The notes under the pieces are model-generated. The model was not told the origin of the DNA. It did not search any database and saw only the letters and a list, made by a program, of their open reading frames with translations. Below are positions 7,047 to 39,345 of a DNA stretch of 49,216 bases, piece after piece (position 1 is the stretch's first letter; each line of letters opens with the position of its first letter). The translations under genes were made by a program, and so were the position numbers. This DNA comes from Candidatus Woesearchaeota archaeon (GTDB lineage: Archaea > Nanobdellota > Nanobdellia > SCGC-AAA011-G17 > JAGVZY01): contig JAGVZY010000014.1 of the NCBI GenBank assembly GCA_018302225.1, positions 1-49,216 on the forward strand. The letters are read 5' to 3'.

Positions 7047-7104
7047 GGTGCAAAAATATCCTGCATAGTCCCAGATAACTAATCATCATGTTATGTTCAT
7101 TAAT

Positions 7105-7463: not shown

Positions 7464-7478
7464 AAACACCTCTCTTTT

Positions 7479-7539
7479 CCCAGGCTAGCTCCGAAGATAA
7501 TTTGGAGCTATCTTGGGTTATAATCCTACTCTCGGATTA
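7479..7539 (+). other. Structured 5' leader with two hairpins
   Basis: TAGCTCC (7486-7492) pairs with GGAGCTA (7504-7510), and the helix is extended by CCCAG (7479-7483) with TTGGG (7513-7517). A second hairpin follows: TAATCC (7521-7526) with GGATTA (7534-7539). Both lie in the leader between the promoter at 7424 and the start at 7577. They could form a regulatory leader or a short independent RNA. No T-tract follows, so an intrinsic terminator is unlikely. Confidence 0.45.
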
Positions 7540-7576
7540 ACAAAATTTAATAACTCTAACAATACCTAAACTTAAA

Positions 7577-7864
7577 ATGGAACAACAAAGAAGTTATCCT
7601 GCCCCCACTAAAAATTGTGGGACTTATGCAACTTTATTTTATGGAGATTTCGCATTCTTAACCACCTATTCTGGTTCAGTTATTTTTTGTACTAAATCTA
7701 ATACTCGAATAGACGAAAATGTAGAAAAAATATTAATTGATTTAGATTATATTCAAAAAAAGGCACAAGCTTCAAATAATTTAGAAAATTTACCTTTCTT
7801 GATAGATATAGTACTCTCAAAGACTTTTTTACTTTCAAATTTATTTCCAAAAACGCTTAAATAA
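7577..7864 (+). CDS. Small hypothetical protein
   Basis: The 95-residue frame begins MEQQRSYPAPTKNCGTYATL, with a mixed beta-like N-terminal half and a helical C-terminal half. No motif, signal peptide or clear membrane segment is present. The promoter and structured leader upstream support expression. Its 3' end overlaps the convergent endonuclease IV-like gene by eight bases. The family is not recognised. Confidence 0.5.
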   Translation: MEQQRSYPAPTKNCGTYATLFYGDFAFLTTYSGSVIFCTKSNTRIDENVEKILIDLDYIQKKAQASNNLENLPFLIDIVLSKTFLLSNLFPKTLK

Positions 7865-8654
7865 ATTTATAATTTAACTTTTCAAATATCTTCTTTTGTT
7901 TTAAAGAATCCTCAAAAGTAATAGGAGATTCAGATATTATTTGCACATCTATTTTTCTTTTAAGTATTTCTTTTGCAAGTTCATCAAAATCTGGTTTGCC
8001 CATAACTTCATGATTTAGTTCTCCAGTTTTACCAAATTTAATTCCAGAAAAATGTATATGTAAATCTTTCAAATTTAAAATTTTTAATTTATCAAAAATT
8101 TCAGAATAGTTAATTCTGCCTTGTTGCCTTGCGTAAATATGTGCAAAATCAACACAAATAGATGTTTTACATTCTTTAACTAATCTTATTGTTTCTTCTA
8201 AAGAACCAAAAACTGTAGTTTTTCCAGTTGTTTCAATTGCTAGTTTAATTTTCCATTTCTTAGAATTTATTTCTTTTTGTATTTCTAAAACCTTTTCTTT
8301 TATTATTTTATAAGTTTCATCAGGAGTTTTTTTAGAATAATATCCTGCGTGAAATACAAGATAATTTGCACCCATTATTTCTCCCAATTCACAACTTTTC
8401 AAAATTCTTTGTTTAGAGGCTGTTATTTTTTCACTTTCTAAAGAATTTAAATTGATAAAATAGGGTGCATGTATACTCAAAGTTATATTTTTTCTTTTTG
8501 CTTCTTCACCTATTTTTTTAGCAAGTTCCTTAGACATATTAATTCCATGTGTAAATTGGACTTCTATACATTGTAATCCCAATCTTTTTAACTCAGAAAT
8601 ACCTTCTAAAGTAGAACTTAAAGGAGAGCCTGCGGGACCAAGTAATATTTGCAT
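7857..8654 (-). CDS. nfo: Endonuclease IV-like TIM-barrel protein
   Basis: The 265-residue protein carries the metal-ligand motifs of the AP endonuclease 2 / xylose-isomerase-like barrel in order: LSIHAPYFINL (about 59), YLVFHAGYY (about 98), LAIETTGK (about 139), ICVDFAHIYAR (about 168), LHIHFSG (about 199) and NHEVMGKPDF. Endonuclease IV cuts DNA 5' to abasic sites in base-excision repair using three Zn ions. The length fits the compact archaeal forms. It is divergent from the TIM-barrel gene at 8727, with a 72-base shared promoter region. A sugar isomerase of the same fold is a less likely alternative. Confidence 0.85.
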   Translation of the reverse strand: MQILLGPAGSPLSSTLEGISELKRLGLQCIEVQFTHGINMSKELAKKIGEEAKRKNITLSIHAPYFINLNSLESEKITASKQRILKSCELGEIMGANYLVFHAGYYSKKTPDETYKIIKEKVLEIQKEINSKKWKIKLAIETTGKTTVFGSLEETIRLVKECKTSICVDFAHIYARQQGRINYSEIFDKLKILNLKDLHIHFSGIKFGKTGELNHEVMGKPDFDELAKEILKRKIDVQIISESPITFEDSLKQKKIFEKLNYKFI

Positions 8655-8726
8655 AATCCTAAAAAGAGTTACATTTATTTAAACCTTTTTCATTATTTTT
8701 ATAAACTTAAGGATTTATTACAAAAT

Positions 8727-9527
8727 ATGCAAAAAGTCAAACCCCAACCTTATATTGGCATAACTGGATTAACTTCTATGTCTGAAATAAGAGCAATATT
8801 TGAAATAAATAAAAATCTCAATCTTTCCTTGGAAAGTAATCATTTGCCTATGTTAGGATTTTTAGTCTCAGATAAAACCTTAAGAGGTTCTTCAACAGAA
8901 AATTATAGATATCCATCAGTAAGAGATATACCCTATTTAGTCGAGAAAGCAAGTAAAGAAGCATTTAGTATGATTCACTATAACACTCATGATAAAACAA
9001 CTATTTTTGAGCAAGTTAAGGAATTGTTTGATAAGATCTACCCATTGGGTTGCAGAGCTATACAATTTAATGTAATCTGGCCTCCAGCTGAACAAATAAG
9101 TCTCATTAAAGATAGTTTTCCAGAAATGAAAATAGTTTTTCAGGCTTCAAAGAAAGTAATGACTGAGCATCAAAATGAAATTGTTGAAAAGCTTAACAAG
9201 TATGTTAATAATCTTGATTATTTTTTGATTGATCCCTCTAGCGGAATAGGTAAAGAGTTTAATTTAGAAGAATCCTTAAATTTTTATAATCTAATAACTA
9301 ACAATTTTTCACATTTAACTATTGGTTTTGCAGGTGGTCTTAACAGCACAAATGTTTATTCTGAAACAAACAAAATTCTAAATTTAATTAAATCTTCAGA
9401 TTTCTGTATAGATGCTGAAGGCGGATTAAGAAATAAAGTCACTGAAATCTATGGACAAGATTTTTTAGATATTAATCAAGCAAAAGGGTATCTAAGTAAT
9501 GCTCTAAAAGCATTTAACAAATTATAG
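8727..9527 (+). CDS. TIM-barrel protein resembling phosphoribosylanthranilate isomerases
   Basis: The 266-residue protein has a beta/alpha-barrel pattern starting YIGITGLTSMSEIRAI, with the phosphate-binding-like strand ends TIGFAGGLNSTNV (about 213) and CIDAEGGLRNK (about 244). These resemble TrpF-like barrels, but no other tryptophan genes are present and the function may differ. The ATG at 8727 is preferred over one at 8649, because the earlier start lies inside the divergent gene and upstream of a TTTATAAAC TATA-like box at about 8699-8707. Confidence 0.6.
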   Translation: MQKVKPQPYIGITGLTSMSEIRAIFEINKNLNLSLESNHLPMLGFLVSDKTLRGSSTENYRYPSVRDIPYLVEKASKEAFSMIHYNTHDKTTIFEQVKELFDKIYPLGCRAIQFNVIWPPAEQISLIKDSFPEMKIVFQASKKVMTEHQNEIVEKLNKYVNNLDYFLIDPSSGIGKEFNLEESLNFYNLITNNFSHLTIGFAGGLNSTNVYSETNKILNLIKSSDFCIDAEGGLRNKVTEIYGQDFLDINQAKGYLSNALKAFNKL

Positions 9528-22405: not shown

Positions 22406-22427
22406 AATATTAACAATAGTTAATATT
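22406..22427. repeat. A/T-rich dyad shared with island 2
   Basis: AATATTAAC (22406-22414), a four-base spacer and GTTAATATT (22419-22427) form a perfect 9-base dyad. Eighteen consecutive bases recur at 39328-39345 in the opposite orientation. In both places the dyad lies just outside a hairpin terminator at the 3' end of an accessory island. It may be an island-end or integration sequence, or coincidence in A/T-rich DNA. Confidence 0.4.
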
Positions 22428-22436
22428 CTGAGAAAT

Positions 22437-22489
22437 AAAAAAGGCACTCTCAACTTCTTTTTATAGAAATTAAAGAAGATGCCTTTTTT
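22437..22489. terminator. Bidirectional hairpin terminator
   Basis: AAGGCA (22441-22446) pairs with TGCCTT (22480-22485), and CTTCTTT (22454-22460) with AAAGAAG (22472-22478). A-runs on the left and T-runs on the right give a U-tract in both directions. This bacterial-style intrinsic terminator ends the minus-strand genes of island 1. Confidence 0.7.
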
Positions 22490-22515
22490 TAATGGAACAG
22501 TTAGTAGCTACTTCT

Positions 22516-22740
22516 CTAGTCTCCGCGTTCTTTTTCACACTTCGCGCCGGCTTGGACATGATGCATTTTGTTGGAATGCGCTCCGCCATCAGGTTTATCG
22601 CTGCAGCCTTCATTTTTTGCATGTAATCCTTTTCTGCTTTCTCTTGCAGTTGATGTGCTCGCGCCTTCACAACTGAAACCTTCATCAGGTTTCCTCCCGC
22701 CATCATTCGGCTTTTTTGCTCCGTCACCTGGTTTTCCCAT
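22516..22740 (-). CDS. Small Gly/Lys/Asp-rich hypothetical protein
   Basis: The 74-residue product begins MGKPGDGAKKPNDGGRKPDE and is highly hydrophilic and probably disordered, with three Cys and three His (CSDKPDGGAH, MHHVQAGAKC). A perfect AAAGGAGG ribosome site ends about nine bases before the ATG and decides the start. G+C content is far above that of the host genes. A second minus-strand frame (22727 to 22470) is open over the same bases, so the true product is not certain. It is the last gene of island 1, followed by the bidirectional terminator. Confidence 0.5.
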   Translation of the reverse strand: MGKPGDGAKKPNDGGRKPDEGFSCEGASTSTARESRKGLHAKNEGCSDKPDGGAHSNKMHHVQAGAKCEKERGD

Positions 22741-22916
22741 ACTATCTACCTCCTTTAATAGAAAATTAAAAAGCCACTCCAACACTTACTTATCTAACAC
22801 CTATTACATACACTTTTTATGAGAGTGCATGATTTATGCAAGGTTAGGTGGTTGAAGTAGCTTTTATTAAACAAATAAAAAATATATCTCTTCTTGGCTT
22901 GTTTTCAAAATTAAAA

Positions 22917-22989
22917 GCGCCCCGAATAGTAGATATCCTTATGACATCATTAATTATAAATTAAGTCAAGGCCTAATTATTCGGGGCGC
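22917..22989 (-). terminator. Long G+C-rich inverted repeat, likely terminator
   Basis: GCGCCCCGAATA (22917-22928) and TATTCGGGGCGC (22978-22989) form a perfect 12-base stem around a 49-base loop, which itself can pair (CCTT...GAC with GTCAAGG). On the minus strand the stem is followed by TTTTAATTTT. The G+C-rich arms stand out sharply from the surrounding DNA. It ends the region after the gene at 23278. Confidence 0.55.
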
Positions 22990-23031
22990 CATACATAAAA
23001 TAAAAGGAATTTCCTTGCAAAATAGTCTAAA

Positions 23032-23232
23032 CGATTAGATTCAAAAAGCAGAGACAAGATAACCCATTGAGGTTTATTTGTTGGGCTGCTTTAATCGAAC
23101 CGATATACCCTAGATTAAGCACAAGTAAGAACTATAGCAAAACTCATTGCACTTAATAATATTGCAAAGAAATTCCAGTTGCACTAAATCAGTGCGAATT
23201 CTTCCTGCATTAATCGTGCAGAAATAGCTATA
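23032..23232. ncRNA. Candidate structured non-coding RNA
   Basis: No convincing gene exists between 22786 and 23277. CGATTA (23032-23037) and AAGCAG (23046-23051) pair with CTGCTT (23086-23091) and TAATCG (23092-23097), a 12-base helix with an eight-base bulge. A second domain is closed by TATAGC (23133-23138) and GCTATA (23227-23232), and contains hairpins GCACT/AGTGC (23181-23195) and CTGCA/TGCAG (23205-23221). Either strand could be transcribed. The stretch lies upstream of the Gly/Lys-rich gene and could be its leader. It resembles no RNA family I know. Confidence 0.4.
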
Positions 23233-23277
23233 ATTTTAAATTTTTATTACTCATCTTTTTTCTATGAAAAGAACAAA

Positions 23278-23505
23278 CTACTTCCCTCTTTTGAGCTGAC
23301 GCTTGAAAAACATCGAAGAATTGCTATTGCGATTTTTCCTGCCACCAGTTATAATAACGCTGTCAGAAACAATCAAATCCTTAAGATGCTGAGGAACATC
23401 TTCCACAGTCTCAAAGATATGGTATATCTTTCCAACCTTGACTGAAACACCCGCGGCAGCTTCACTCTTGTTCTCACCCACCATTATCGCATTTTTTGAT
23501 GCCAT
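23278..23505 (-). CDS. Small hypothetical protein, island 1
   Basis: The 75-residue protein starts MASKNAIMVGENKSEAAAGV and has a beta-rich centre (VGKIYHIFETVEDVPQHLKDLIVSDSVIITGG), then a basic tail with RKNRN and KRQLKRGK. The tail may bind nucleic acid. AAAAAGGAGG lies seven bases before the ATG. The G+C content is above host level. It follows the gene at 23531 by 25 bases, so they are probably cotranscribed. Confidence 0.65.
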   Translation of the reverse strand: MASKNAIMVGENKSEAAAGVSVKVGKIYHIFETVEDVPQHLKDLIVSDSVIITGGRKNRNSNSSMFFKRQLKRGK

Positions 23506-23530
23506 TTTTCAACCTCCTTTTTAACAAACT

Positions 23531-23785
23531 TTAGAATTTCTTGCGATGATTAGTGAGAGCACAAGTAACTGCACTATGAAGTGCCTTGTCCAAAGGTTCG
23601 CTACTGCGGATTTTAATAATCTGCTCGTTTCCTTCTCCATCTCTACCCATATGGATACTCATATCTCTTCCATTCTCTCTGAATACTTCTACAGCCTGGA
23701 TAGCTGCAAGCACAACTTTTTTCTCTTCAGGAGTTCTTGCTCTTTTTTTGAGATTAATAGTTAAAGGATCACTAAGTTTTAGCAT
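23531..23785 (-). CDS. Small hypothetical protein, island 1
   Basis: The 84-residue product (MLKLSDPLTINLKKRARTPE...) looks like a small mixed alpha/beta domain: a helix with EEKKVVLAAIQAVEVFREN, a strand pair around MSIHMGRDGEGNEQIIKIRS, and a helix ending in a basic HRKKF. The start at 23785 is chosen for its GAGGT ribosome site five bases upstream; an in-frame ATG at 23845 would add 20 residues and overlap another small frame. The function is unknown. Confidence 0.6.
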   Translation of the reverse strand: MLKLSDPLTINLKKRARTPEEKKVVLAAIQAVEVFRENGRDMSIHMGRDGEGNEQIIKIRSSEPLDKALHSAVTCALTNHRKKF

Positions 23786-23799
23786 ATGTACCTCTTTTT

Positions 23800-23934
23800 C
23801 TATTTTTTTGTGTTCATCCTTGAACAATTTCTTTCCTTGGTACATTCCCTATTCCTTGAATTGACCCAATCTGGACGTGAAAGGGGCAATAAAGATTCAT
23901 ACACCCCCTTCTCCATGATTTTAAAACAAATCAT
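23800..23934 (-). CDS. Possible short leader ORF with strong ribosome site
   Basis: A 44-residue frame starts at 23934, six bases after TAGGAGGTGAG, the best Shine-Dalgarno match in the island. The peptide (MICFKIMEKGVYESLL...) has no recognisable motif and ends 15 bases before the next start. It may be a genuine small gene or a leader that couples translation to the gene at 23531. Confidence 0.35.
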   Translation of the reverse strand: MICFKIMEKGVYESLLPLSRPDWVNSRNRECTKERNCSRMNTKK

Positions 23935-23990
23935 ATCTCACCTCCTAAAATTTGTTTAAGAAATTTATTACACATTGAAATTGTTTTCAA

Positions 23991-24036
23991 CCCGCTTATT
24001 TTCAGCTTAAAAAAGCATTGAAAATTTACAAGCGGG
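23991..24036. other. Strong intergenic hairpin
   Basis: CCCGCTT (23991-23997) pairs with AAGCGGG (24030-24036), ATTTTCA (23998-24004) with TGAAAAT (24019-24025), and GCTT (24005-24008) with AAGC (24013-24016). This gives an 18-base interrupted stem. It lies between two minus-strand island genes. No T-tract follows, so it may be an RNA-stability or processing element rather than a terminator. Confidence 0.5.
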
Positions 24037-24086
24037 CTGTCATAGAAAATAAGGATGTAATTGCTTACTCCTTTTTCAGCCTTTAT

Positions 24087-24269
24087 TTAAACAAAACTTT
24101 TTATTTGTTGATTTCGAAATGGATTTTCCCCGGATTCAAGTTTTTTTCTCAGTTTTTCATTTGCTTTAATCTCTTTTTGAACAGCCACCTTAATAATTTT
24201 TAATCTTTCAAAATTTTCACTTAAAAATTTCTTTATTTCTTTTTTAGATAGTTGTTTCGCCAGATTCAT
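24087..24269 (-). CDS. Small basic helical protein, island 1
   Basis: The 60-residue product (MNLAKQLSKKEIKKFLSENF...) is predicted to be mostly helical and is Lys-rich, resembling small nucleic-acid-binding proteins in composition only. TTAGGAGTG lies six bases before the ATG. It is the first complete gene of island 1 and is preceded on the minus strand by two hairpin terminators, so its expression may depend on readthrough. Confidence 0.6.
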   Translation of the reverse strand: MNLAKQLSKKEIKKFLSENFERLKIIKVAVQKEIKANEKLRKKLESGENPFRNQQIKSFV

Positions 24270-24308
24270 AAATCACTCCTAAATTTATTTAAAAATGAAT
24301 TAAATTCA

Positions 24309-24368
24309 AAAAGAGGGAGCAGACATATTATAACTTCTCAATTATAATTTCAAAATTGACCTGCTCCC
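24309..24368 (-). terminator. Hairpin terminator upstream of island 1 genes
   Basis: On the minus strand GGGAGCAG (24368-24361) pairs with CTGCTCCC (24322-24315) and is followed by TCTTTTT. The loop is 38 bases and A/T-rich. It sits in the leader of the gene at 24269, a position suited to attenuation. Confidence 0.6.
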
Positions 24369-24394
24369 TGAGAATCCCTACCCTTATTAATTTC

Positions 24395-24438
24395 AAAAAA
24401 GGAGGCAGATGAATATAACCATAAAATTAATCTGCCTC
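24395..24438 (-). terminator. Second hairpin terminator in the same leader
   Basis: On the minus strand GAGGCAGAT (24438-24430) pairs with ATCTGCCTC (24410-24402), a perfect 9-base stem with a 19-base loop followed by six T. Together with the terminator 27 bases further on it makes a tandem pair. The stretch 24270-24594 holds no convincing gene, only a 36-codon frame without a ribosome site. Confidence 0.65.
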
Positions 24439-24594
24439 AAAATGAAACATTCAGCCATGCTAACCCACCATAAATTCAAACAATTCCAAGGTATTCCGCA
24501 CATATTTCAAAAGAATTTAATTTATTTCAGAAAATAATTTATCCCTAAATCTAAAAAAATCAGAAATAAAACCAGTTTTTCCAGTCTATTCCAC

Positions 24595-26370
24595 TTACTT
24601 AATGGCTTCAAGAATCTTTTTCCAACCTTTGTCGTTCTTTTCAACAACTTCTTTGATTAATCCTTTTGCCATTACTTGACTTTTAAGTATATTGCCTTTT
24701 CGAGCTGATACGCCTAAAAGTTTGTATATCTCTGCTGTGCCAGAACCTGGGTTCTGCTTAACTGCATTGATAAATTTGTTTTCTTCTTCTGAAATATCTG
24801 ATAAATTAGAAATATCAAGTTGTTCCTTTAAAAAACTTTCTGTTGTTCCCACACCTGAAGTCCCAAAGGTATGGTATAAGTCTTCTATTTTCTTTTTTAA
24901 CTCAGAATCTTTGACAGACTCATTAAATATCTCTATTCTTTTCATATTTTTCATTTTTTCAGTCATAAAGTTATGGACATGTTCATTTGTTACTATCTTT
25001 TCTCTTAAAGGTATTAAAGGCGTAGTAATAATAAAAGGTAAATGAAATCTTTCAACAAGCTTTACAACTGCTGAACCAACAGGCAACATAGAGAAGAATT
25101 TTTTTCTATCATACATTTGCATAATATTTGCAATAGTATCAACATCTTGGGGTAAAGTCTGTTGGAATGCAATCTCACAAGCACTATTACCTGCAACAAC
25201 ATCACTCAACTTAGAGATATGCTGATCCAAACATATCAAACTAACCCCATACTCTCTAATTTCTCTATAAATCATTTCAGTTACAGTTTCTTTCATAAAA
25301 CTAGGTTTATCTTTAAGTAAAATATTATGCGCCTCATCAATTAAAATCGCAGATTCAAAATTATGTTTGGTTTCATAATTGGCCTTTTTCAATTTAAATA
25401 TATGAGTTAGCATATATTCACAGAAGAATTTCTTTTCTGCAGTATCTAATGAATTCAATTCAAATATTATCTTTTTAGACATTAATTTTTCTATATCTAA
25501 AGAATCTGGGCCTTTATAATTTAAAGCCTCACCGAATGCACCAAAAGTTAAAGAATGAGCAATTCTTAAAGCACTTTCTAACCATTCAGATTCTCTACCT
25601 CTAAACTTTTTATCATTTTGCATTTCATTTAATCTATCTTTTATTTGGTACCAAGTTGGGTAGTTTTCAGAACCTTCATACACTTTAAATTCTGTAAAAG
25701 TTCTGTCTAAAGTTTCAGATAATAATTTATGTACTCCAAAACTTGCAGAGAAGCTTTCATTTAAAATATCACAAAGAATATTTATCCATTCTTTTGGTGG
25801 AACCCCTTTTGGAGGTTTGTTTATATTTAATTTAAAATAATTACTTATTTTTTCCGTTCCAACTGTAAAACATAAAATCTCTTCATTAATTAACATCAAA
25901 GGTCTAAAAGACTTTTTCCAATCAAATGCGATAAACGGTTTTTGTTTTTTTATAAAATTAAATAATATCTGAAAAGCAAAATTAGTTTTTCCAGAACCAG
26001 ACATACCTGTTATACAAACATGTCTTGGCCAGTCAGACTCTCGTAAACCAAAAGTATAAAGCTGCTTATTTGCATAAACTATTTTTCCTAGGGGATATTC
26101 TCCATTTACAATACCTTGTTCTGGAGGCTCTAATAATAATTCTTCAACCAATAAACTTTCACTCAAATGTTTTTGATAAAGTGCATTTATTGTTTGCTCA
26201 ATTTCTCTTTTTTGATTTAAGTCATCAGACAAAGTATATCTTAAAAAAAGAACATCAATTCTTTTACCAAATATTGGTTTTAATTTCCTGCAAATTTCCG
26301 GCACTGTTAAATAATTCTCTGGTCTCATTCTATTGCCCTGTTGATGACGATTTGGATTATAAAAGCCCAT
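24595..26370 (-). CDS. HerA/VirB4-like AAA+ ATPase with C-terminal winged helix
   Basis: The 591-residue protein has an N-terminal domain with GKIVYANKQLYTFGL, then Walker A GMSGSGKTN (122-130), FDWKKSFRPL, and Walker B with DEAH in AILIDEAHN (about 345). The YGVSLICLDQHISKLSDVV segment is typical of VirB4/TraG-like and HerA DNA or protein translocases. The last 75 residues look like a winged helix (GSGTAEIYKLLGVSARKGNILKSQVMAKGLI). It starts one base after the coiled-coil gene at 26372 and is probably cotranscribed. Without partner secretion proteins in the window, its role as a DNA pump, secretion motor or pilus component stays open. Confidence 0.85.
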   Translation of the reverse strand: MGFYNPNRHQQGNRMRPENYLTVPEICRKLKPIFGKRIDVLFLRYTLSDDLNQKREIEQTINALYQKHLSESLLVEELLLEPPEQGIVNGEYPLGKIVYANKQLYTFGLRESDWPRHVCITGMSGSGKTNFAFQILFNFIKKQKPFIAFDWKKSFRPLMLINEEILCFTVGTEKISNYFKLNINKPPKGVPPKEWINILCDILNESFSASFGVHKLLSETLDRTFTEFKVYEGSENYPTWYQIKDRLNEMQNDKKFRGRESEWLESALRIAHSLTFGAFGEALNYKGPDSLDIEKLMSKKIIFELNSLDTAEKKFFCEYMLTHIFKLKKANYETKHNFESAILIDEAHNILLKDKPSFMKETVTEMIYREIREYGVSLICLDQHISKLSDVVAGNSACEIAFQQTLPQDVDTIANIMQMYDRKKFFSMLPVGSAVVKLVERFHLPFIITTPLIPLREKIVTNEHVHNFMTEKMKNMKRIEIFNESVKDSELKKKIEDLYHTFGTSGVGTTESFLKEQLDISNLSDISEEENKFINAVKQNPGSGTAEIYKLLGVSARKGNILKSQVMAKGLIKEVVEKNDKGWKKILEAIK

Positions 26371-26371: not shown

Positions 26372-27025
26372 TTATTCGAGTATCTTTCCTATAGTTGCAA
26401 GACTACTTTCTTTTTCTCTAAACTCTTTTATTCTTTCTCTTAATTCTTCTTTTAAGTTAGCAATATCTCTCCAACAATTTAATTTCTCTTGAATTTTTAT
26501 TTCTTCTATATCTACTTGTTTCTGTCTTAATTTTAATTGCTCTGCTTTATTGACATCTGTATCTGTTCCAAGTTGTAAGATATAATTATTAATATCTGTT
26601 TTTATAGCTTCTAAATCTCTAAACAATTCTAGATTTAACATCTTTCTTGCCTCAATCAGAATATTAATATCATTAATTACTTCTTTAAGAGAATCAATTC
26701 CAGAACCTTGAATCTCTTTAAGCAAAGCATCCATATCATCCTCATCTTCAGGAACTTTCAAAGGATTTTCTTGTCTTAATTGTGGTGGAGTTATATATTG
26801 AATAGGTTTAGCAGGTCTTTGCTGAAAATCCATAGTATAATGGTGAGGATTATTCACAAAAGACTCTTGCATTTTTGGTGCTATAGGTGGAATTGATTTT
26901 TGTAAAACCTCTTTAGATTTTTGAGGTGTTAGAGGTATATTAAAAGGATTAGCTTTAACAGGAGTTTTACCTTTATTAGTATCTTCATCTAAAAATCCTG
27001 CAAGTAAATCTTCTTTCATATTCAT
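26372..27025 (-). CDS. Coiled-coil partner of the HerA/VirB4-like ATPase
   Basis: The 217-residue protein has a Pro-rich, probably disordered N-terminal half (PFNIPLTPQKSKEVL, YITPPQLRQENPLKVPEDEDD) and a long coiled coil from about 110 to the end. The start at 27025 is chosen because the TATA box at 27068-27082 places transcription initiation near 27043, downstream of an alternative start at 27052. It lies directly before the ATPase gene in the same operon. It may be an adaptor linking the motor to its substrate, which is inference. Confidence 0.7.
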   Translation of the reverse strand: MNMKEDLLAGFLDEDTNKGKTPVKANPFNIPLTPQKSKEVLQKSIPPIAPKMQESFVNNPHHYTMDFQQRPAKPIQYITPPQLRQENPLKVPEDEDDMDALLKEIQGSGIDSLKEVINDINILIEARKMLNLELFRDLEAIKTDINNYILQLGTDTDVNKAEQLKLRQKQVDIEEIKIQEKLNCWRDIANLKEELRERIKEFREKESSLATIGKILE

Positions 27026-31246: not shown

Positions 31247-31260
31247 GTTTATAAACCTTT
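31247..31260 (-). promoter_or_regulatory. rpoK promoter
   Basis: The minus strand reads AAAGGTTTATAAAC. The spacing of 29 bases to the rpoK ATG is that of leaderless archaeal genes. Confidence 0.8.
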
Positions 31261-31261
31261 T

Positions 31262-31337
31262 GTTAGCGAAGCTAACAACTCTCTGTTTTACAGAGATTTT
31301 GTTGGTTGAGACCAACAACCCTTTGTTTTTACAAAGG
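31262..31337. repeat. Four tandem perfect short hairpins
   Basis: Four back-to-back stems occupy nearly every base: GTTAGC/GCTAAC (31262-31276), TCTCTGT/ACAGAGA (31280-31296), TTGTTGGT/ACCAACAA (31299-31318) and CCTTTGT/ACAAAGG (31320-31337). Loops are 3-4 bases and all stems are perfect. They lie between the end of the exosome cluster and the rpoK promoter. They may end or protect the exosome-cluster mRNA, or be a remnant of a repeat element. The sequences differ while the architecture is the same. Confidence 0.75.
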
Positions 31338-31354: not shown

Positions 31355-32137
31355 TTACAAAACTTTTCTCAAGTCTGCAGTTCTTTTAATAGCAATTGCA
31401 GTCATTTTTTTAACATCTTCTGAAGTTAGAGTTCCAGAGCCACCTTTTTGCAGTGCACATAACATCCCATTGTCATCAACTGCAATAGTTAGCTTAGAAT
31501 CCATCACTTCTTCTTCTGCTAAAGAAGCATCTGCAACAATTTCATCGCCTATTTTAATTAAAGTAACTTCAAGAGGTTTTCTTACAAGTGGAATTTTTCC
31601 TGTTCTTTTCTTATAATCAACTTTGTCTTCTTTTTCATTATAGGTAGGTAATTTTGCATCCATTAATGCACCTAATGCGGCTAATGATGCTGCATCTTGT
31701 AGATTTCCAGCGTCATTTAGAGTATAGATATCAATACAAACCATCCATACTTTTTCTCCAGATTTTATGCACAATTTTTTCAAATCAATTGCATGACTTT
31801 CTCTTATACCTCTATCAACAACTCTTGCCAATTCAATGCTTTTATTGTTTGGCGGCCCCATTTCAAAATCAGGAGATGATAAGGGTAACATTTCTGCACC
31901 AACCATAATTGCACCTTGATCAGGTGTATCAGGATAAGCTTCGCCGACTTCTAATTTAACTCCAGCTGCAACAATAGTTTCACCTATTATTACTCTCGCA
32001 CTTCCTTCAGCTTTGTTGCTTATCCCATATTCAATCTTTATTGGTTTTCTAAATTCATCTAATTTTCTTCCATCCAATCTTTTTCCTTCTTTAAGTAATT
32101 TTAAAATATATTCTTTTGAAGCTTTAATTTGACTCAT
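31355..32137 (-). CDS. rrp42: Archaeal exosome subunit Rrp42
   Basis: The 260-residue RNase PH-fold protein is the non-catalytic partner of Rrp41 in the exosome hexamer. Features include RLDGRKLDEFRKPIKIEYG, GSARVIIGETIVAAGVKLEVGEAYPDTPDQG and the family-typical SPDFEMGPPNNKSIELARVVDRGIRES. The start overlaps the rrp41 stop by four bases (ATGA). It is the last gene of the psmA-SBDS-rrp4-rrp41-rrp42 series and is followed by tandem hairpins. Confidence 0.97.
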   Translation of the reverse strand: MSQIKASKEYILKLLKEGKRLDGRKLDEFRKPIKIEYGISNKAEGSARVIIGETIVAAGVKLEVGEAYPDTPDQGAIMVGAEMLPLSSPDFEMGPPNNKSIELARVVDRGIRESHAIDLKKLCIKSGEKVWMVCIDIYTLNDAGNLQDAASLAALGALMDAKLPTYNEKEDKVDYKKRTGKIPLVRKPLEVTLIKIGDEIVADASLAEEEVMDSKLTIAVDDNGMLCALQKGGSGTLTSEDVKKMTAIAIKRTADLRKVL

Positions 32138-32859
32138 TTTTCATCAGCCCCTATTTCTTTGTATTTTTTGTATAAAGCTTCTCTTTGAACTTCATTTATT
32201 TTCTTAGCAGCTATTTTTGCTTTTTCTATAGCTTCTATTAGTTCTTCAGCTTTTAATTCCCCATCCATTTGCAATAAACTTACTTCACCGGTTCTAGGCA
32301 AAATTGCAACAGGTATATCAACAGATTTGTGTCCATCTTTTGGTTCATAATCTTCTTCTTCTTTGTTAAGATCAACAACTATCTTATCTCCAACTTTTCC
32401 AACAGATACTGCAGCTATTAAATCTCTCATAACCAATCCTGCATCAGCCAAAGCCATTGCAGCAGCAGTTATTCCTACACATCTTGTTCCAGCATCAGCT
32501 TGTATAATTTCTATAAATACATCTACAACTGCATTTGGAAATTGACTTAAGTCAAGAACACTTGATAGTGCAGATTCAGTAACATAACTGATTTCTTTAC
32601 TTCTTCTTGATGGACCCGGTCTTATTCTTTCATCTACTGAGAATGCAAGCATGTTGTAATTACATCTCAATATTCCTTTTTGAGGATCTTGTAAGAATTT
32701 AGGATAAAGGTTTCTTGGGCCATATACAGCAGCTATAGCTATTGTATCTCCCATTCTAAACATGGCACTTCCGTCAGCTCTTTTTACAACGCCAACTTTA
32801 GCTTCCATTTTTCTTGGTTCATCAAATTTTCTTCCGTCTACTCTTTTGTCGTAACTCAT
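32134..32859 (-). CDS. rrp41: Archaeal exosome catalytic subunit Rrp41
   Basis: The 241-residue RNase PH-fold subunit carries out 3'-5' phosphorolytic RNA degradation and tailing. It shows DGRKFDEPRKMEAKVGVVKRADGSA, the phosphate-site region RIRPGPSRRSKEIS, DAGTRCVGITAAAMALADAG and ILPRTGEVSLLQMDGEL. It overlaps rrp42 and rrp4 by four bases each, so the three are translationally coupled. Confidence 0.97.
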   Translation of the reverse strand: MSYDKRVDGRKFDEPRKMEAKVGVVKRADGSAMFRMGDTIAIAAVYGPRNLYPKFLQDPQKGILRCNYNMLAFSVDERIRPGPSRRSKEISYVTESALSSVLDLSQFPNAVVDVFIEIIQADAGTRCVGITAAAMALADAGLVMRDLIAAVSVGKVGDKIVVDLNKEEEDYEPKDGHKSVDIPVAILPRTGEVSLLQMDGELKAEELIEAIEKAKIAAKKINEVQREALYKKYKEIGADEK

Positions 32860-33578
32860 TTTTTAGCCTCCTTGTCCTTACTGTTTTTCTTTTCAGTCTC
32901 GCTTTCAAGAAGCTGTTTTATTTTGTCTGTTAATCCTTCAGTATGACTTTCTCTTTCTATTTTTAATATAACTTCAGTAGCTCTTAATTCTGCTTCTGCA
33001 TTATCTCCAGAAATCCAAATTAAACCATTTTGTCCAACAACAATTTTACAACCTGTTGCTTCTTTTATCATAGTTATCATACTTCCTTGTTTTCCAATTA
33101 TTCTTGGAACTTTAGAAGGTGCAACTTCAATAATTCTTCCACCAATTAATTTTCTTAATCCTGGTCCTCTCATTGATAAATCAACAGTTTTTGTAGCTGA
33201 AACACTTAAAATGTTTGTTGCAACTATGTCGCCATAGTCATAAAACTTGGTTAAATCAGCACCTTTTGTTATAAATTCTTGTGTTGCTTCTTTCATTGAA
33301 AGAAATGCTTGGTATGCACAATTTATTTCAAATCTCCATCCATAAACATTTATATCAACAACTTTTGCTATTACTGTGTCTCCTTTTTTAGGAGCGTATT
33401 TTCCACTTAAAGCAATGACTTTTATAAGTCTACCATCAACATTTGCTAATCCCATTTGTGATGCGACAATTTTATCATTTTCTCTAAATGCTCCTCCAGC
33501 CGGCAAATAATCCATTCCCTCTGCCAAGACTTGTCCAGGAGTTACTATATCTTTATTTTCTACTAATATTTTACTCAT
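32856..33578 (-). CDS. rrp4: Exosome cap subunit Rrp4
   Basis: The 240-residue protein has the N-terminal domain (VTPGQVLAEGMDYLPAGGAF), an S1 domain (KKGDTVIAKVVDINVYGWRFEI) and a KH domain (PRIIGKQGSMITMIKEATGCKIVVGQNG). It binds RNA at the exosome cap and feeds it to the Rrp41/Rrp42 ring. The C terminus is charged and disordered. GGAGGATATAAG precedes the ATG. The gene sits between the SBDS homologue and rrp41. The other cap protein, Csl4, is not in the window. Confidence 0.97.
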   Translation of the reverse strand: MSKILVENKDIVTPGQVLAEGMDYLPAGGAFRENDKIVASQMGLANVDGRLIKVIALSGKYAPKKGDTVIAKVVDINVYGWRFEINCAYQAFLSMKEATQEFITKGADLTKFYDYGDIVATNILSVSATKTVDLSMRGPGLRKLIGGRIIEVAPSKVPRIIGKQGSMITMIKEATGCKIVVGQNGLIWISGDNAEAELRATEVILKIERESHTEGLTDKIKQLLESETEKKNSKDKEAKK

Positions 33579-33589
33579 CTTATATCCTC

Positions 33590-34282
33590 CTACGATATGA
33601 TTTTTGTTTCTATTTCACCATGACTTATTCGATTTATTTCGTCATAAAATTCTGTTGAAAGTCCAGCAGGCATTTCTACTTCAGCTTTCAAAGAGCCATC
33701 ATTGCCCCACTCAGACTTTTTTATTTTTCCAAAATTTTTCAAAACATTATTTACCTTTCCAGCAAAATGTGCAGCAACCTTAACTTCAATTATTCTTGTT
33801 TCAAATTTAATTGGAAGAACACCAGTTAATTGTTTCACAACATCTTGTATTTGGTCTTCTGCATTTTTAAATTCGCTAATTTTTACTTTAGCTTCAATCA
33901 TTGCAGCCTCAATTCTTTGAGGTGGATGGGGTAATTTTGTTCTTGGGTCTATTGCATTTTTGTGTATAATTGAAACTATTTGTTTTCTTTTTTCTTCAAA
34001 CAATTTCCTTTTATGATCTGCATTTACTTCTAAGTTTCCTTCTCTAATTACTATTTCAGCAACTTTTCTAGAATCGTCAGTTCCAAAGATTTTTTTCATT
34101 TCATTTTCAGAAGCTCTCATTCCTTTTTTAGAGTCTTTATAGACTGTATCTGCGACTAAAACATCATCTAAACTTATTATTTCATTTTTTCTAAATTTTA
34201 GAGCTTTTTCTAATTCTACAAGAACTTCAAATTCTTCTCCAGCTTTTCTTAATTTTACAATTGTAGCTTTATTGAAATCCAT
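33590..34282 (-). CDS. Ribosome maturation protein SDO1/SBDS homologue
   Basis: The 230-residue protein has the SBDS three-domain layout: an N-terminal FYSH domain (TIVKLRKAGEEFEVLVELEKALKFR), a central helical domain with HPPQRIEAAMIEA and a C-terminal ferredoxin-like domain. The eukaryotic homologue releases eIF6 from 60S subunits. Its place between psmA and rrp4 is conserved in many archaea. The family call is certain from sequence. Confidence 0.96.
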   Translation of the reverse strand: MDFNKATIVKLRKAGEEFEVLVELEKALKFRKNEIISLDDVLVADTVYKDSKKGMRASENEMKKIFGTDDSRKVAEIVIREGNLEVNADHKRKLFEEKRKQIVSIIHKNAIDPRTKLPHPPQRIEAAMIEAKVKISEFKNAEDQIQDVVKQLTGVLPIKFETRIIEVKVAAHFAGKVNNVLKNFGKIKKSEWGNDGSLKAEVEMPAGLSTEFYDEINRISHGEIETKIIS

Positions 34283-34289
34283 TTTAACC

Positions 34290-35003
34290 TCATGCGTATT
34301 TTTTTAATTCTTTTGGTCCTATTGCAACATATTTCTTATCTTTTAATGCAATATATGATGCACAGAATCTATTTATATCAAATTCTTTCTGTAATACTTT
34401 TTTGAAAATACTTATTGCTAATGCAAAGCCTTGTTCCATAGTTAAATTATCTTTATACTCTTTTTCAAGAGCATCCATAATTTCAGTTTCACCTTCACCA
34501 ATTGCGGCTGCATTATATTGAAAGAAAATTCCACTCGGTTCAGTTGCAAATAATTTTGCACCATCTTCATCTATTCCAGCAAACAATAAACTTACACCAA
34601 AGGGTCTTGCTCCACCATACTGACTATAGGCTTGTTTAACATTACAAATATCTTTAACTAAACTTTGAATATCTATGGGTTCATCATAAGTAACTTTATG
34701 TTGTTGTGCTTTTATTTGGGCTCTTTCAAACAAAATTCTTCCATCACTCACTAATCCAGAAACCGCAGCACCAATATGCTCATCTATTTGAAATAATTTT
34801 TCTATACTCTTACTAACAACTAATTTACTTATAATCCTCTTATCACTAATTAGTATAACTCCATCTTTACATACCATACCTAAAGCAGTTGTTCCTTGTC
34901 TTACAGTTTTCTTTGCATATTCAATCTGTAATAATCTTCCATCTGGACTGAACATTGACTGAGTTCTATCATAACCCATCATTTGATTTGACATTTGTTG
35001 CAT
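34290..35003 (-). CDS. psmA: 20S proteasome alpha subunit
   Basis: The 237-residue protein has the alpha-type N-terminal gate segment GYDRTQSMFSPDGRLLQIEYA, then TALGMVCKDGVILISDKRI and GAAVSGLVSDGRILFERA. Alpha subunits form the outer rings that gate substrate entry and bind the regulatory ATPase. A shorter start at the Met of MGYDRT is possible; the longer start has AAAGGAGGAATA immediately upstream and is kept. The beta subunit is not in the window. Confidence 0.97.
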   Translation of the reverse strand: MQQMSNQMMGYDRTQSMFSPDGRLLQIEYAKKTVRQGTTALGMVCKDGVILISDKRIISKLVVSKSIEKLFQIDEHIGAAVSGLVSDGRILFERAQIKAQQHKVTYDEPIDIQSLVKDICNVKQAYSQYGGARPFGVSLLFAGIDEDGAKLFATEPSGIFFQYNAAAIGEGETEIMDALEKEYKDNLTMEQGFALAISIFKKVLQKEFDINRFCASYIALKDKKYVAIGPKELKKYA

Positions 35004-35556: not shown

Positions 35557-35670
35557 GCATATTTTTGTTTAGTTTTAAATCTCAAACTTTTTTCTAATTT
35601 AAACTTATTTTAATAAAAACCCTTGGAATAACTTGGAAAATAAATTTTAATCTTTAAGGAGGATATTATT

Positions 35671-35898
35671 ATGTTTAATTTTTTTCATAGTCTGGTAATT
35701 CAGAACCAACCCCCCACCTTTTTTATAGCTCTCTTTTTTGTAACTCTAACTCTCTTTTATTTTGTTCTTTTTCTTTTAACATTCTTCTTTAGATATCACT
35801 TTAAAGAAGACATTTTTTATGCTTATTTAATCCTTTCATTTATCTGTGCAATAAGCATTTATGTTGTGCCTTTAATTACTCCTCTTTTAAGAGAATAA
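35671..35898 (+). CDS. Two-helix membrane protein, island 2
   Basis: The 75-residue protein has two transmembrane helices (about 15-40 and 51-71) with a short loop (RYHFKED). AAGGAGGATATT precedes the ATG. Small hydrophobic products like this are common in mobile elements as holins, pilot or toxin peptides, but nothing in the sequence identifies one. It is the first sizeable plus-strand gene of island 2. Confidence 0.6.
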   Translation: MFNFFHSLVIQNQPPTFFIALFFVTLTLFYFVLFLLTFFFRYHFKEDIFYAYLILSFICAISIYVVPLITPLLRE

Positions 35899-35935
35899 AT
35901 AATTAATCATTTAAATTTTAAGTTTGGAGGAAGTC

Positions 35936-36499
35936 ATGAAAAGGATTATATTTAGCTCACGAATTATTTTCTTTCTTATAGTTTTGATATTTATTTGCCT
36001 CGCTTCAGCATCTCTTTTTTTATATCAAAACAAAGAATATACTTCACTTGAACAAAAATACAACTCTCTCCAAATAGAATACACCACTCTCCAGGAATCT
36101 TCGCAAAAAGCAACACCTATTCCAATCACTTCAGATACAAAGACTCACAAGATTACTAATTCAGAAGATTCAGTTGCTTATCTAAAATACCAAGTATCAG
36201 AAGAACTTTCGAAATTAGCTTATTTATGGGGGGCTAGAATGAAAAATATCGGCAAAGAATATTCTGAAGATCTAGAAATTCTAAAAAGAAATAACCTTTC
36301 AGACACACCCTATTTTCTTACCAGAGAAGAAGAAATTCTCACAAGGGCAGTAGGTGCAAAACACTGGGGAGATATCTGGAGAAAAGAAGATGAAAAAGTC
36401 ATTCTGGATAAATATCCCCAGGAAATAAAGGACTATTTTAGTAAATCGTTAAGGATAAAATTATTTCATTTTCTTAATTCTAATTCTGATACTCAATAA
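35936..36499 (+). CDS. Membrane-anchored coiled-coil protein, island 2
   Basis: The 187-residue protein has one N-terminal transmembrane helix (about 7-29), a short coiled coil (about 33-55) and a helical globular part with KYQVSEELSKLAYLWGARMKN. The layout resembles secreted or membrane-tethered accessory proteins, but no family is recognised. The ATG at 35936 has TTTGGAGG six bases upstream; an in-frame TTG at 35924 is less likely. It belongs to one series of plus-strand genes with intergenic spacings of 17-77 bases. Confidence 0.65.
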   Translation: MKRIIFSSRIIFFLIVLIFICLASASLFLYQNKEYTSLEQKYNSLQIEYTTLQESSQKATPIPITSDTKTHKITNSEDSVAYLKYQVSEELSKLAYLWGARMKNIGKEYSEDLEILKRNNLSDTPYFLTREEEILTRAVGAKHWGDIWRKEDEKVILDKYPQEIKDYFSKSLRIKLFHFLNSNSDTQ

Positions 36500-36524
36500 T
36501 ATTTTTACTAAGGAGGAAATTTAA

Positions 36525-36848
36525 ATGTCAGAAACAAATATAGAAAGAAATGGATTAATGGTTTTTCATTTTTACGAAGCGTCTAAAAATGCCGGAACTA
36601 AGTACAGGGTACTTTGCATAGATAAGGGTGAAGATAAATCCAAACGTCTGTTTTCATATATTATCTTCAGAAGAGACAAGATCATACCCCGAGACACAGC
36701 ACAAAGAGCATTTGATGATTTAAACTCTATCCCCCACAACATAGAAAAGGGAGAAAAGGTTGCATCAGAATTGCTCTCTTCTTGGTTTCCAGAAAAAAAT
36801 GGATACAAAATTCTATTTGGATTTGATAATCTTAGAAACATTCTTTAA
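36525..36848 (+). CDS. Hypothetical soluble protein, island 2
   Basis: The 107-residue product is soluble with mixed alpha/beta character (MVFHFYEASKNAGTKYRVLCIDKG, then RAFDDLNSIPHNIEKGEKVASELL). AAGGAGGAAATT precedes the ATG by seven bases. Composition is richer in G+C than the host genes. No motif or family is recognised. Confidence 0.65.
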   Translation: MSETNIERNGLMVFHFYEASKNAGTKYRVLCIDKGEDKSKRLFSYIIFRRDKIIPRDTAQRAFDDLNSIPHNIEKGEKVASELLSSWFPEKNGYKILFGFDNLRNIL

Positions 36849-36865
36849 AGGAGAAGTGATTCATT

Positions 36866-37003
36866 TTGTTTAATTTTTTAGGTCACATCGCGAATTTGAT
36901 TATTTCATTTCCTGGGCTAGTTCAACCAGACAATTTATTCTTAGGAACTATGCTCACTTCATTTTTCGGAATAATTTTCTATGCACTTCGTAAAGGGATA
37001 TAA
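36866..37003 (+). CDS. Small membrane peptide with TTG start, island 2
   Basis: A TTG at 36866 follows AAAGGAG by about 12 bases and opens a 45-codon frame. The peptide has hydrophobic segments around FNFLGHIANLIISFPGLV and TMLTSFFGIIFYALRKGI, a likely helical hairpin. The MFNF start echoes the first membrane protein of the island (35671). It is too short to assign. Confidence 0.5.
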   Translation: MFNFLGHIANLIISFPGLVQPDNLFLGTMLTSFFGIIFYALRKGI

Positions 37004-37041
37004 ACTTTGATTATTTTTTTGAAAGGAGGTGAATTTTTTCT

Positions 37042-37128
37042 TTGTATTTTAAAAAATTTGACAAAGGAGTAACCAAGTATGTCAAACACACAGGGCGTAG
37101 CCCAGATTTCAAACGCGGATCAGATTAA
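37042..37128 (+). CDS. Possible 28-residue basic leader peptide
   Basis: A perfect AAAGGAGGTGA (37022-37032) has no other start at the right distance than TTG 37042. The short basic frame runs into the start of the 477-residue gene in another frame, which would couple the two. It could be a translated leader; alternatively the ribosome site is vestigial. Confidence 0.25.
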   Translation: MYFKKFDKGVTKYVKHTGRSPDFKRGSD

Positions 37129-38512
37129 GTACAAGAATTTGTTTAATTCTTTTCTGGAAAAATTAGGAGATCCAAAGAATCTTGATTTTCCAGAAATTCC
37201 TGCAGAACATTTGTCAGAGTTAATTCTCCACAGTAAAAGCATCGGAGCATTCAAACTTTTTCTAAAAAAGTATCCTGAAAAAAAGGAAACTTTGAATCAG
37301 GAAATTTTTGTAAGAAATTTGTTTGATGGTGTAAAGGGTATAAACAATGTTGAGACTTTAACAGATAGTTTATTGGATGCTTCATTCCCTCAATCGATTA
37401 TTCAGGAAAATATTCCTTTTCAGAAGGTTTTTGAAGAAATGGACACCTATTTTAAGGATATCATTTCTGGAATGGATGAAGACAAAGTAACCTGTTACTA
37501 TTTTGAAAAATGTTTCTCATTCCTTCGTAAGTTTGATAAAGCAAGTGATGTCTCTTTCCAAGAAGGGACATACTTTTTTGCCAAACTCTTAGAAAGCCAG
37601 GAGCCAAGAAATCGTTCTACTTTGAGAATTCTCTTTTTCCTGTACAAGACTTGCTTTCCTTCAGGTGGTTCAGCACTTCCAAATGAATCTCCCACTAGCA
37701 TCTCTAAGTTGCTTACTTCTTTTTCATTAAATTATCTTGCAACCGAAACAGATGTGAATGGAAGGTTAAATAATCTCAGTTCTATATACTCTCTTTTTTC
37801 CTGCGGACCTGAATTTAACAAAGAGATTATAAAAGCTGAGTTTTCAAAAATCTTGTCATCTATAACTCTTAAGAGAGAATTAGATGATGAAGATGATGAC
37901 TTTGTAGACATTTCTGCAAATCCCCTCATGCGCATAAGACAGCTAAAGCAACTGGTTGGCTTGGCCAATTGCACAAAGTTGTTTAATAGAACTGAAATCC
38001 TTGAGGCAATTTCTAAGATAAAAAGTGGTTCAAGCAAAAGCAAAGAAAGAAAGTTACTTTTGCTTTCAGAAATCATAGGCGAAAAGTTATATCCCTATTA
38101 TAATAGTTATCCTAAATTTGAGGATAAACTCCGGGAGATAATCGGGCCACTTTTAAGATCAGGTAAGCCTCAAGCAGTGAAAGATTATCTTGGGGCCTAT
38201 GGGTTTCGCAGTTTCTATTTTAACGATTCTTCTGAAGGTGCAAAGTATTTCGAGATTTATCTTTTGAAAGAATGGTGGAACAAGCTGGATTTACTTTCCA
38301 GATTATTTCATCACAATATATCTCCAGATGATATTAAAGATACGGTCTGGGAAGAATTGTTTTCATCAAAATTTTCAAAAGATCAACAGAAAGATCTGAT
38401 TTCAATACTTGCACCCATTTGGAACTTTCCTAGTGCGAGCATAGATCATTATGAATCAAAAGCTTTTTCAAAGCTCTTGACTCGTTTCGGACTGAAAGAA
38501 TTTATTTTCTAA
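37079..38512 (+). CDS. Large helical hypothetical protein, island 2
   Basis: The 477-residue protein is the largest of the island. It is soluble and predominantly helical, with repeated short helix pairs (LSELILHSKSIGAFKLFLKKYPEK, LYKTCFPSGG, KLREIIGPLLRSGKPQAVKDYL) that suggest an alpha-solenoid. No enzymatic motif, Cys cluster or membrane segment is visible. ACAAAGGAG precedes the ATG. Codon use is more balanced than in host genes. A 29-base hairpin terminator follows the stop codon. Confidence 0.75.
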   Translation: MSNTQGVAQISNADQIKYKNLFNSFLEKLGDPKNLDFPEIPAEHLSELILHSKSIGAFKLFLKKYPEKKETLNQEIFVRNLFDGVKGINNVETLTDSLLDASFPQSIIQENIPFQKVFEEMDTYFKDIISGMDEDKVTCYYFEKCFSFLRKFDKASDVSFQEGTYFFAKLLESQEPRNRSTLRILFFLYKTCFPSGGSALPNESPTSISKLLTSFSLNYLATETDVNGRLNNLSSIYSLFSCGPEFNKEIIKAEFSKILSSITLKRELDDEDDDFVDISANPLMRIRQLKQLVGLANCTKLFNRTEILEAISKIKSGSSKSKERKLLLLSEIIGEKLYPYYNSYPKFEDKLREIIGPLLRSGKPQAVKDYLGAYGFRSFYFNDSSEGAKYFEIYLLKEWWNKLDLLSRLFHHNISPDDIKDTVWEELFSSKFSKDQQKDLISILAPIWNFPSASIDHYESKAFSKLLTRFGLKEFIF

Positions 38513-38517
38513 ATTTT

Positions 38518-38546
38518 AGCAGGGTGGACTATACATCTACCCTGCT
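38518..38546 (+). terminator. Hairpin terminator after the 477-residue gene
   Basis: AGCAGGGT (38518-38525) pairs with ACCCTGCT (38539-38546) around a 13-base loop and is followed by TTATTTC. The form is bacterial-style and partly T-rich. Confidence 0.65.
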
Positions 38547-38590
38547 TTATTTCAATTTAAAATTTAATTTTTATTCAGGAGGAAAATTTT

Positions 38591-38989
38591 ATGTTTAATG
38601 CTACTTTGTCAGTAATGCAATTTGCTCATTTTGGTATTATAATGTGGGGCATCTTTATAACTTTCATTTTTTTTCTAGGTAATATAACTGAGCTCAAAAT
38701 AAAAGATAAAAAAGCAATCACTACTATTAGTAATTCCGAAATCTTTGAGAAAGAAGAGAATAGAAAGTGCAATCGGAAGCATACCTACTTAGTAATAGTA
38801 TTTAACCTCCTAATCAGTTTTGCTTATTTGTTATGGCCTAATCAAAATGAAGTATTTGGAACAATACCCTCTAATCTTCCAATTTCAATACATTTATTCA
38901 TTTATACCTCTACAATAGGCATAGCCATGCTAATTATTACAGGTTTAATCGGTGCGTGCGATATAGTCTATTTCTTTTTTGAATCTTAA
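38591..38989 (+). CDS. Three-helix membrane protein, island 2
   Basis: The 132-residue protein has three hydrophobic helices (about 12-32, 68-84 and 100-128) and a charged cytoplasmic-type loop (KIKDKKAITTISNSEIFEKEENRKCNRKH). CAGGAGGAAAATTTT precedes the ATG. No family is recognised. It lies between two hairpin terminators with the next small membrane gene. Confidence 0.65.
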   Translation: MFNATLSVMQFAHFGIIMWGIFITFIFFLGNITELKIKDKKAITTISNSEIFEKEENRKCNRKHTYLVIVFNLLISFAYLLWPNQNEVFGTIPSNLPISIHLFIYTSTIGIAMLIITGLIGACDIVYFFFES

Positions 38990-39039
38990 TTCAATTAATT
39001 TATTTCAAGGATATCAAAATCAATTAAAAGGAGAAAATT

Positions 39040-39258
39040 ATGTTAAGGTTATACAGTTTCATTTCTTTAGTATTCAGTTCTTTTAGCTATTTTGTATATT
39101 ATGAAAATAAATACCCTACCAATTACATTTGGACATCAAATCCTAAAGTTCAGATGAGTATCAAGAAAGCTGCATTAATATGCACTTTTGTGTTTGGAAC
39201 AATAAGTGCTTTACTCATTTTACTTTATCTAACCTACCTTGCAATCAACAAAAATTAA
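39040..39258 (+). CDS. Two-helix membrane protein, last gene of island 2
   Basis: The 72-residue protein has an N-terminal hydrophobic stretch (about 3-20) and a C-terminal helix (about 46-68), with NKYPTNYIWTSNPKVQMS between. AAAAGGAGAAAATT precedes the ATG. A terminator with seven T follows 30 bases after the stop, then the A/T dyad shared with island 1. Confidence 0.6.
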   Translation: MLRLYSFISLVFSSFSYFVYYENKYPTNYIWTSNPKVQMSIKKAALICTFVFGTISALLILLYLTYLAINKN

Positions 39259-39327: not shown

Positions 39328-39345
39328 AATATTAACTATTGTTAA
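39328..39345. repeat. A/T-rich dyad shared with island 1
   Basis: AATATTAACTATTGTTAA is the exact reverse complement of 18 bases at 22410-22427. It lies nine bases after the island 2 terminator, as the other copy lies next to the island 1 terminator. Degenerate relatives occur nearby at about 39410-39426. Confidence 0.4.

Follow-up and report, generated by a model that had tools for sequence, protein, structure and literature searches.

Bacterial-type operons have been acquired by DPANN archaea (e.g., PMC8204110), and integrons and CALINs, which also occur in archaea, have been seen as a route of cross-domain transfer (Ghaly et al. 2022, PMC9668308). Band-7/flotillin-YqiJ(YuaF)-PspA operons represent a known membrane-stress set of both bacteria and archaea (PMC11237479). 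How bacterial genes become usable in archaea with different promoters, and in the present case with mostly leaderless mRNAs, is an open question. The locus described here, island 1, resembles the first of these systems in that bacterial-looking genes are present in a small archaeon, but it is one of at least six units with common 5' and 3' tags and common codon use. Like archaeal integrons and CALINs, it carries short same-strand ORFs with hairpins between them; however, no integron integrase or attC boxes were found, the hairpins with T-tracts are terminator-like, and a palindrome lies at the island ends. The YqiJ-flotillin-PspA set is present in one sister island only and is absent from island 1. 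Another relevant system is an autoregulated archaeal HTH regulator, which we take to be COG2522-like: the palindrome at the island ends is the one found close to its promoter in relatives, but in the islands it is put to an unusual use, downstream of the last gene and away from the promoter. A small search of the open-access literature found no description of islands sharing 5' and 3' DNA tags and codon use.

The window analyzed in this study is an entire contig (C14; 49,216 nucleotides) of a 0.81-Mb (814-kb) genome in 21 contigs, rated 99% complete with a contamination estimate of 0.78%. The rRNAs of this genome are archaeal, archaeal exosome-type genes and a TadA/TadC-type system are present in the window, and from genome size and gene content we infer that the host is a DPANN archaeon. 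The closest genomes found belong to other families of the same order, none being from the host's own family. A TATA-like box, CTTTATAAAT, lies upstream of 108 leading host genes that lack an SD, with a peak at about -33 nt from the ATG, pointing to leaderless mRNAs. An SD precedes only 46 of 275 host genes, as compared to 30 of 37 island genes; the original prediction that host genes mostly use leaderless starts is therefore borne out. The 16S rRNA of the host ends in GGATCACCTCCTTT at its 3' end with the anti-SD intact, so that full pairing with SD sites of the AAAGGAGGTG type is possible. Core exosome genes are SD-led as well (the operon at 32134-35003 has four such genes, with strong SDs and host codon use), and an SD by itself is thus no mark of foreign DNA. 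Four short hairpins are found in a row at 31260-31337, just 3' of the end of an exosome-type gene. A group I intron lies within the archaeal 23S rRNA gene on C15 (L023, 12294-12535).

Island 1 occupies 22406-24594 on the minus strand, a region of 2.2 kb with four to five short ORFs carrying strong SD sites (Table 1). Five small genes with near-perfect AGGAGG sites had been predicted; all five ORFs are indeed SD-led, but the full AGGAGG is limited to three of them (g1, g2 and g4), the other two having AGGAG (g5) and GAGGT (g3). As an in-place SD of this kind is found at only 34 of the 1473 ATGs of the window (2.3%), five out of five is far beyond chance. The predicted rise in G+C applies to g1 (0.49), g2 (0.42) and g3 (0.39), as compared to about 0.29 in the surroundings; g5 is host-like at third positions (GC3 of 0.15). 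The frame of g1 is overlapped by a second SD-led frame (22470-22685), and neither scores clearly as coding.

Table 1. Positions of features of island 1 and of its sister island in the window
Feature	Position	Strand	Details
3' palindrome AATATTAAC-TATT-GTTAATATT	22406..22427	.	Island 1 left edge
Hairpin F	22437..22489	.	T-tracts on both strands; between convergent genes; -19.9 kcal/mol, z -5.4
g1	22516..22740	-	74 aa; SD AAAGGAGGT; codon log-odds +0.156; frame uncertain
Hairpin E	22770..22865	-	T-tract; ends ~15 nt upstream of g1 SD; -31 kcal/mol, z -4.3
Hairpin D	22917..22989	-	12-bp perfect outer arms; T-tract; -30.9 kcal/mol, z -4.8
Gene-free stretch	22990..23260	- (either strand)	Folds better than shuffles: z -3.6 (minus), -3.5 (plus)
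g2	23278..23505	-	75 aa; SD AAGGAGGT; codon log-odds +0.264
g3	23531..23785	-	84 aa (or 104 aa from 23845); SD GAGGT; codon log-odds +0.118
g4	23800..23934	-	44 aa; SD AGGAGGTG; codon log-odds +0.158
Hairpin C	23986..24040	-	No T-tract; directly upstream of g4 leader; -24.2 kcal/mol, z -6.3
g5	24087..24269	-	60 aa; SD AGGAG; coiled-coil-like; host-like codon use
Hairpin B	24311..24370	-	T-tract; 41 nt upstream of g5 start; -20.9 kcal/mol, z -2.8
Hairpin A	24402..24438	-	T-tract; from scan; -14.1 kcal/mol, z -4.1
Second, degenerate 5' box copy CGGAATACCTTGGAA	24484..24498	-	From sequence
5' box TGGAATAGACTGGAA	24579..24593	-	Directly 3' of HerA-like gene stop; one of four TGGARWARNYTGGAW matches
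5' box of sister island	35624..35638	+	TGGARWARNYTGGAW pattern match
Sister island (island 2, C14b)	35671..39258	+	Six SD-led genes, none recognisable
3' palindrome core of sister island	39332..39345	.	From pattern search

At least three hairpins followed by T-tracts had been foreseen, and six hairpins were counted (-14 to -31 kcal/mol; z -2.8 to -6.3), five of which, all except hairpin C, run into a T-tract on the minus (gene) strand. By sequence, these have the form of a terminator, i.e., a GC-rich stem plus a T-tract. Only a few dozen bases separate the ends of hairpins B and E from the SD of the following gene, so that, if they are terminators, the next gene would start within or after the hairpin; alternatively, these two might be processing or stability elements. 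In a uniform scan for hairpins with 9-bp perfect arms containing at least 4 G/C, 10 were found in 27.0 kb of island DNA versus 2 in 207.9 kb of host DNA, a 38-fold higher density. The gene-free stretch between hairpin D and g2 may be a structured RNA, as judged from its folding; an Rfam search of island 1, including this stretch, returned no known RNA family. The stretch that follows the 5' box resembles the leader of a gene in the C6 island but has no SD, and no gene lies between the members of the hairpin pairs A/B and D/E. This gene-less 5' stretch, these hairpin pairs and the two overlapping frames at g1 suggest decay, and in our view island 1 belongs to a series but has partly decayed. 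The word "remnant" in the original prediction thus fits, but the virus or plasmid to which it was attached has no support, as the proteins tested gave no viral, phage or plasmid match and no replication or capsid gene was found.

The architecture of island 1 recurs on C6, C7, C11, C14 (twice, island 1 being C14a) and C15, giving at least six islands. The island noticed originally is real, and it belongs to a genome-wide series that had gone unnoticed. This count of islands is a minimum, as only about one third of the genome was taken as sequence and the remainder was searched by pattern. Most islands were located through the 3' palindrome described below, making its association with the islands partly circular; however, a genome-wide list of GGAGG-N3-9-ATG sites yields the same clusters independently. 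By eye, this list contains seven clusters of at least three sites (C6, C11 start, C11:41-46 kb, C14a, C14b, C15 and the exosome operon), all of which are islands save the exosome operon. The C7 island, with two such SDs and one GAGGT, was located via the palindrome. The cluster at the C11 start runs off the contig end and shares a 225-nt repeat with the C6 island (92%); it may be the missing start of that island. Leader units are repeated both within and between islands. In the C6 island (L022), a lipoprotein-like gene is tandemly duplicated (7676-8139 and 8285-8748, 80% identical), and a hairpin-plus-leader unit is also present twice (814-921 and 3579-3684, 89%).

The islands begin with a common box, a direct repeat of the form TGGAA-N5-TGGAA. 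The exact pattern TGGARWARNYTGGAW is found four times in the 814-kb genome, each time at an island start (C7, C11-start, C14a and C14b), and degenerate forms are found at the C11b and C15 islands; since the counted sites themselves served to define the pattern, the count is descriptive, while the absence of further copies is informative. When island leaders were searched for host-type TATA boxes, one exceeded shuffled sequences (C11) and none was clear in island 1. Sigma-70-type promoters showed no excess over shuffles in 15-35 kb, a test that has no power against this AT-rich background. A C10 site with an SD and a near-box was considered as an island and rejected; by eye, it looks like an ordinary AbrB/PIN toxin-antitoxin pair.

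The 3' ends of the islands carry the palindrome AATATTAACTATTGTTAATATT, 52-209 nt past the last gene. Its exact core occurs four times genome-wide, including twice within the window, and stands at the 3' end of four islands; a core with one mismatch stands at the 3' end of two further islands. With one-mismatch copies included, there are seven intergenic palindromes, on C6 (two), C7, C11, C14 (two) and C15. Six island 3' ends align around this palindrome, two of them sharing 57 bp at 82%. At each island, it is flanked on one side by AT-rich host DNA and on the other by an array of SD-led genes pointing toward the palindrome. A search of 60 related genomes with TTAACTATTGTTAA gave 24 matches versus 1 for the reversed control, and about a dozen of the copies in relatives lie, by eye, upstream of one HTH-regulator gene, between its start and a TATA box. 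This conserved gene (PQEIEVWYVIP...) has the site in many families of the order (e.g., L030-L032, L035-L037, L039, L040, L044 and L047), where its upstream position would be that of a conserved autoregulatory operator. In the leader of the host's own copy of the gene (C15:27738-28076, 47% identity), TTAACTATAGTTTAA is present together with a related site. As the palindrome overlaps the promoters of the regulator genes in relatives, it is probably the operator of this HTH regulator, and an insulating, silencing or roadblock role might be proposed for it 3' of the islands.

Codon use was compared with that of the host, as had been suggested, by leaving out one island at a time, training the model on the other islands and scoring the island left out. 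Scores were positive for 31 of 34 island genes and for 0 of 42 host genes, and 2.7% of 75-codon host pieces scored above zero. Genes g1-g4 match the other islands and are unlike the host (+0.12 to +0.26), while g5 (-0.022) is near the host, as are several genes of the C6 and C11 islands. The codons CTC, CTG, CGC and CAG are used by island genes and are much less frequent in host genes. The shift is a general one toward G+C, including the G-ending codons CTG, CGG and GCG, and thus points to import more than to selection at the level of translation. A foreign origin of the islands is thus supported, even though some island genes could be native orphans. Gene order beside island 1 is not conserved among relatives that keep its HerA-like neighbor, and no empty site, recombinase, target-site duplication or terminal repeat was found for the islands. 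The bacterial donor of the original prediction is plausible, given the expression signals and the flotillin/YqiJ/PspA genes on C11, but no donor was found and this gene set is also archaeal; scans with the C11 flotillin, which covered close relatives, gave one 32% match in Clostridium.

The island 1 products had been called unrecognisable, and no homologue or known family emerged for them in the searches run. Profile searches of g1-g5 against Pfam and PHROGs, the two databases used for g4 and g5, gave chance-level matches only. No homologue was found in IMG/VR for g1-g3, among plasmids for g2, or in 40 related genomes, 84,980 species genomes and phages for g3; likewise, the 477-aa protein of island 2 had none in 102 genomes of the order, IMG/VR and plasmids. 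The reach of most homologue scans was that of close relatives. When the DNA of island 1 was searched against 60 relatives, only short AT-rich matches were obtained besides the palindrome. AlphaFold models had pLDDT values of 69 for g3 (fold order H-H-E-E-H) and 51 for g2, and a structural search with the g3 model gave no convincing match (best E values of 0.02 among viral structures and 0.27 in the PDB). No known families are present among the proteins of islands 1 and 2. In other islands, the C11 genes encode YqiJ_N, flotillin and PspA_IM30 proteins in that order, C15 has a Band_7 protein (prohibitin), and C6 and C7 carry, by eye, small signal-peptide or lipoprotein-like proteins. As the nameable products are membrane, lipoprotein and envelope-stress proteins, an accessory cell-surface function is likely.

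Across the islands, anatomy is common, codon use is foreign and homologues of the proteins tested went undetected. We favor, with reasonable rather than firm confidence, the reading that this genome carries a family of at least six dispersed, self-contained accessory operons of foreign, perhaps bacterial, origin, of which island 1 is a partly decayed representative. Under such a scheme: each unit would start with the TGGAA-N5-TGGAA box, probably as promoter or regulator DNA; its co-oriented genes, with near-perfect SDs, could be read by the host 16S anti-SD; GC-rich hairpins, often between genes, would terminate, process or protect the mRNA; and the unit would end with a terminator hairpin and the TTAACTATTGTTAA palindrome, probably bound by the host HTH regulator, which has a similar site in its own promoter, leaving the island insulated or repressed. 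A bolder version, in which these dispersed, expression-autonomous operons form a class not described before and are all insulated or silenced at once by a single host regulator acting via the 3' operator, so that imported surface genes would be under a regulon or xenogeneic-silencing system, is speculative and, on present evidence, unlikely. Six or more islands keeping bacterial-style signals and end tags would show that imported operons are handled as one class; the islands also supply defined motifs and a putative host regulator that can be tested, and their envelope products are relevant to the interactions of small archaea with other cells.

The common 5' and 3' motifs are also what a native archaeal regulon might look like, that is, surface genes that evolve fast, are translated via SDs and have a promoter box of their own and a common regulator, their codon bias reflecting expression or function instead of recent import. 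The secreted and membrane gene content and the palindrome of a host regulator conserved across the order agree with this. However, the G-ending CTG, CGG and GCG codons mark a shift toward G+C in general, and none of the genes tested is present in the remainder of the order (40-102 other genomes), so that we consider this explanation rather unlikely. An integrated virus or plasmid would account for small genes of no known family with foreign composition, decay signs and no homologues, but it is improbable: the proteins tested lack viral, phage or plasmid matches (none in IMG/VR for g1-g3, none in phages for g3 and none among plasmids for g2), replication, packaging, capsid and terminase genes are absent from every island, the cargo includes envelope genes, and no terminal repeats or target duplications were found.

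Short co-oriented ORFs with hairpins between them could also represent an integron-type cassette array with the hairpins as attC sites, an explanation that is largely refuted and very unlikely. The genome has just two tyrosine recombinases; with the TIGR02249 integron integrase model, the window copy reaches 23.5 bits, short of the cut-off of 265, and the one on C2 is likely XerA, by position and score. Moreover, the hairpin arms are unlike one another in sequence, and in a simple scan attC-like box pairs (RYYYAAC / GTTRRRY) were not in excess: C14a and C14b have two palindromic pairs, no more than chance would give, and C6, C7, C11 and C15 have none. Finally, the metagenome-like assembly in 21 contigs and the foreign composition might suggest an assembly chimera or contamination, but the islands of C7, C11, C14 (twice) and C15 have archaeal genes on either side, the junction motif of 14-22 bp is short for contig joining, and the contamination estimate is 0.78%, so that we regard this as highly improbable too.

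Some other features of the window were observed. The gene adjoining island 1 (24595-26370, minus strand) encodes a HerA/VirB4-like ATPase that matches the CedD DNA-import model only weakly (55.5 bits versus a cut-off of 600); this gene and its partner (26372-27013) are kept together in 8 of 79 genomes, the host genome included. A toxin-antitoxin-like small gene pair and a zinc-ribbon tyrosine recombinase (46724-47926) lie amid three related stretches of about 100-130 bp (45780-45890, 46610-46710 and 48120-48240). About 500 nt of gene-free DNA, without a match to an Rfam family, precede a stretch at 5521-7560 (minus strand) that is richer in G+C and, by eye, encodes an ArsR-like regulator, SHOCT-like membrane proteins and a DsrE-like protein; this stretch is possibly another import, one without SDs.
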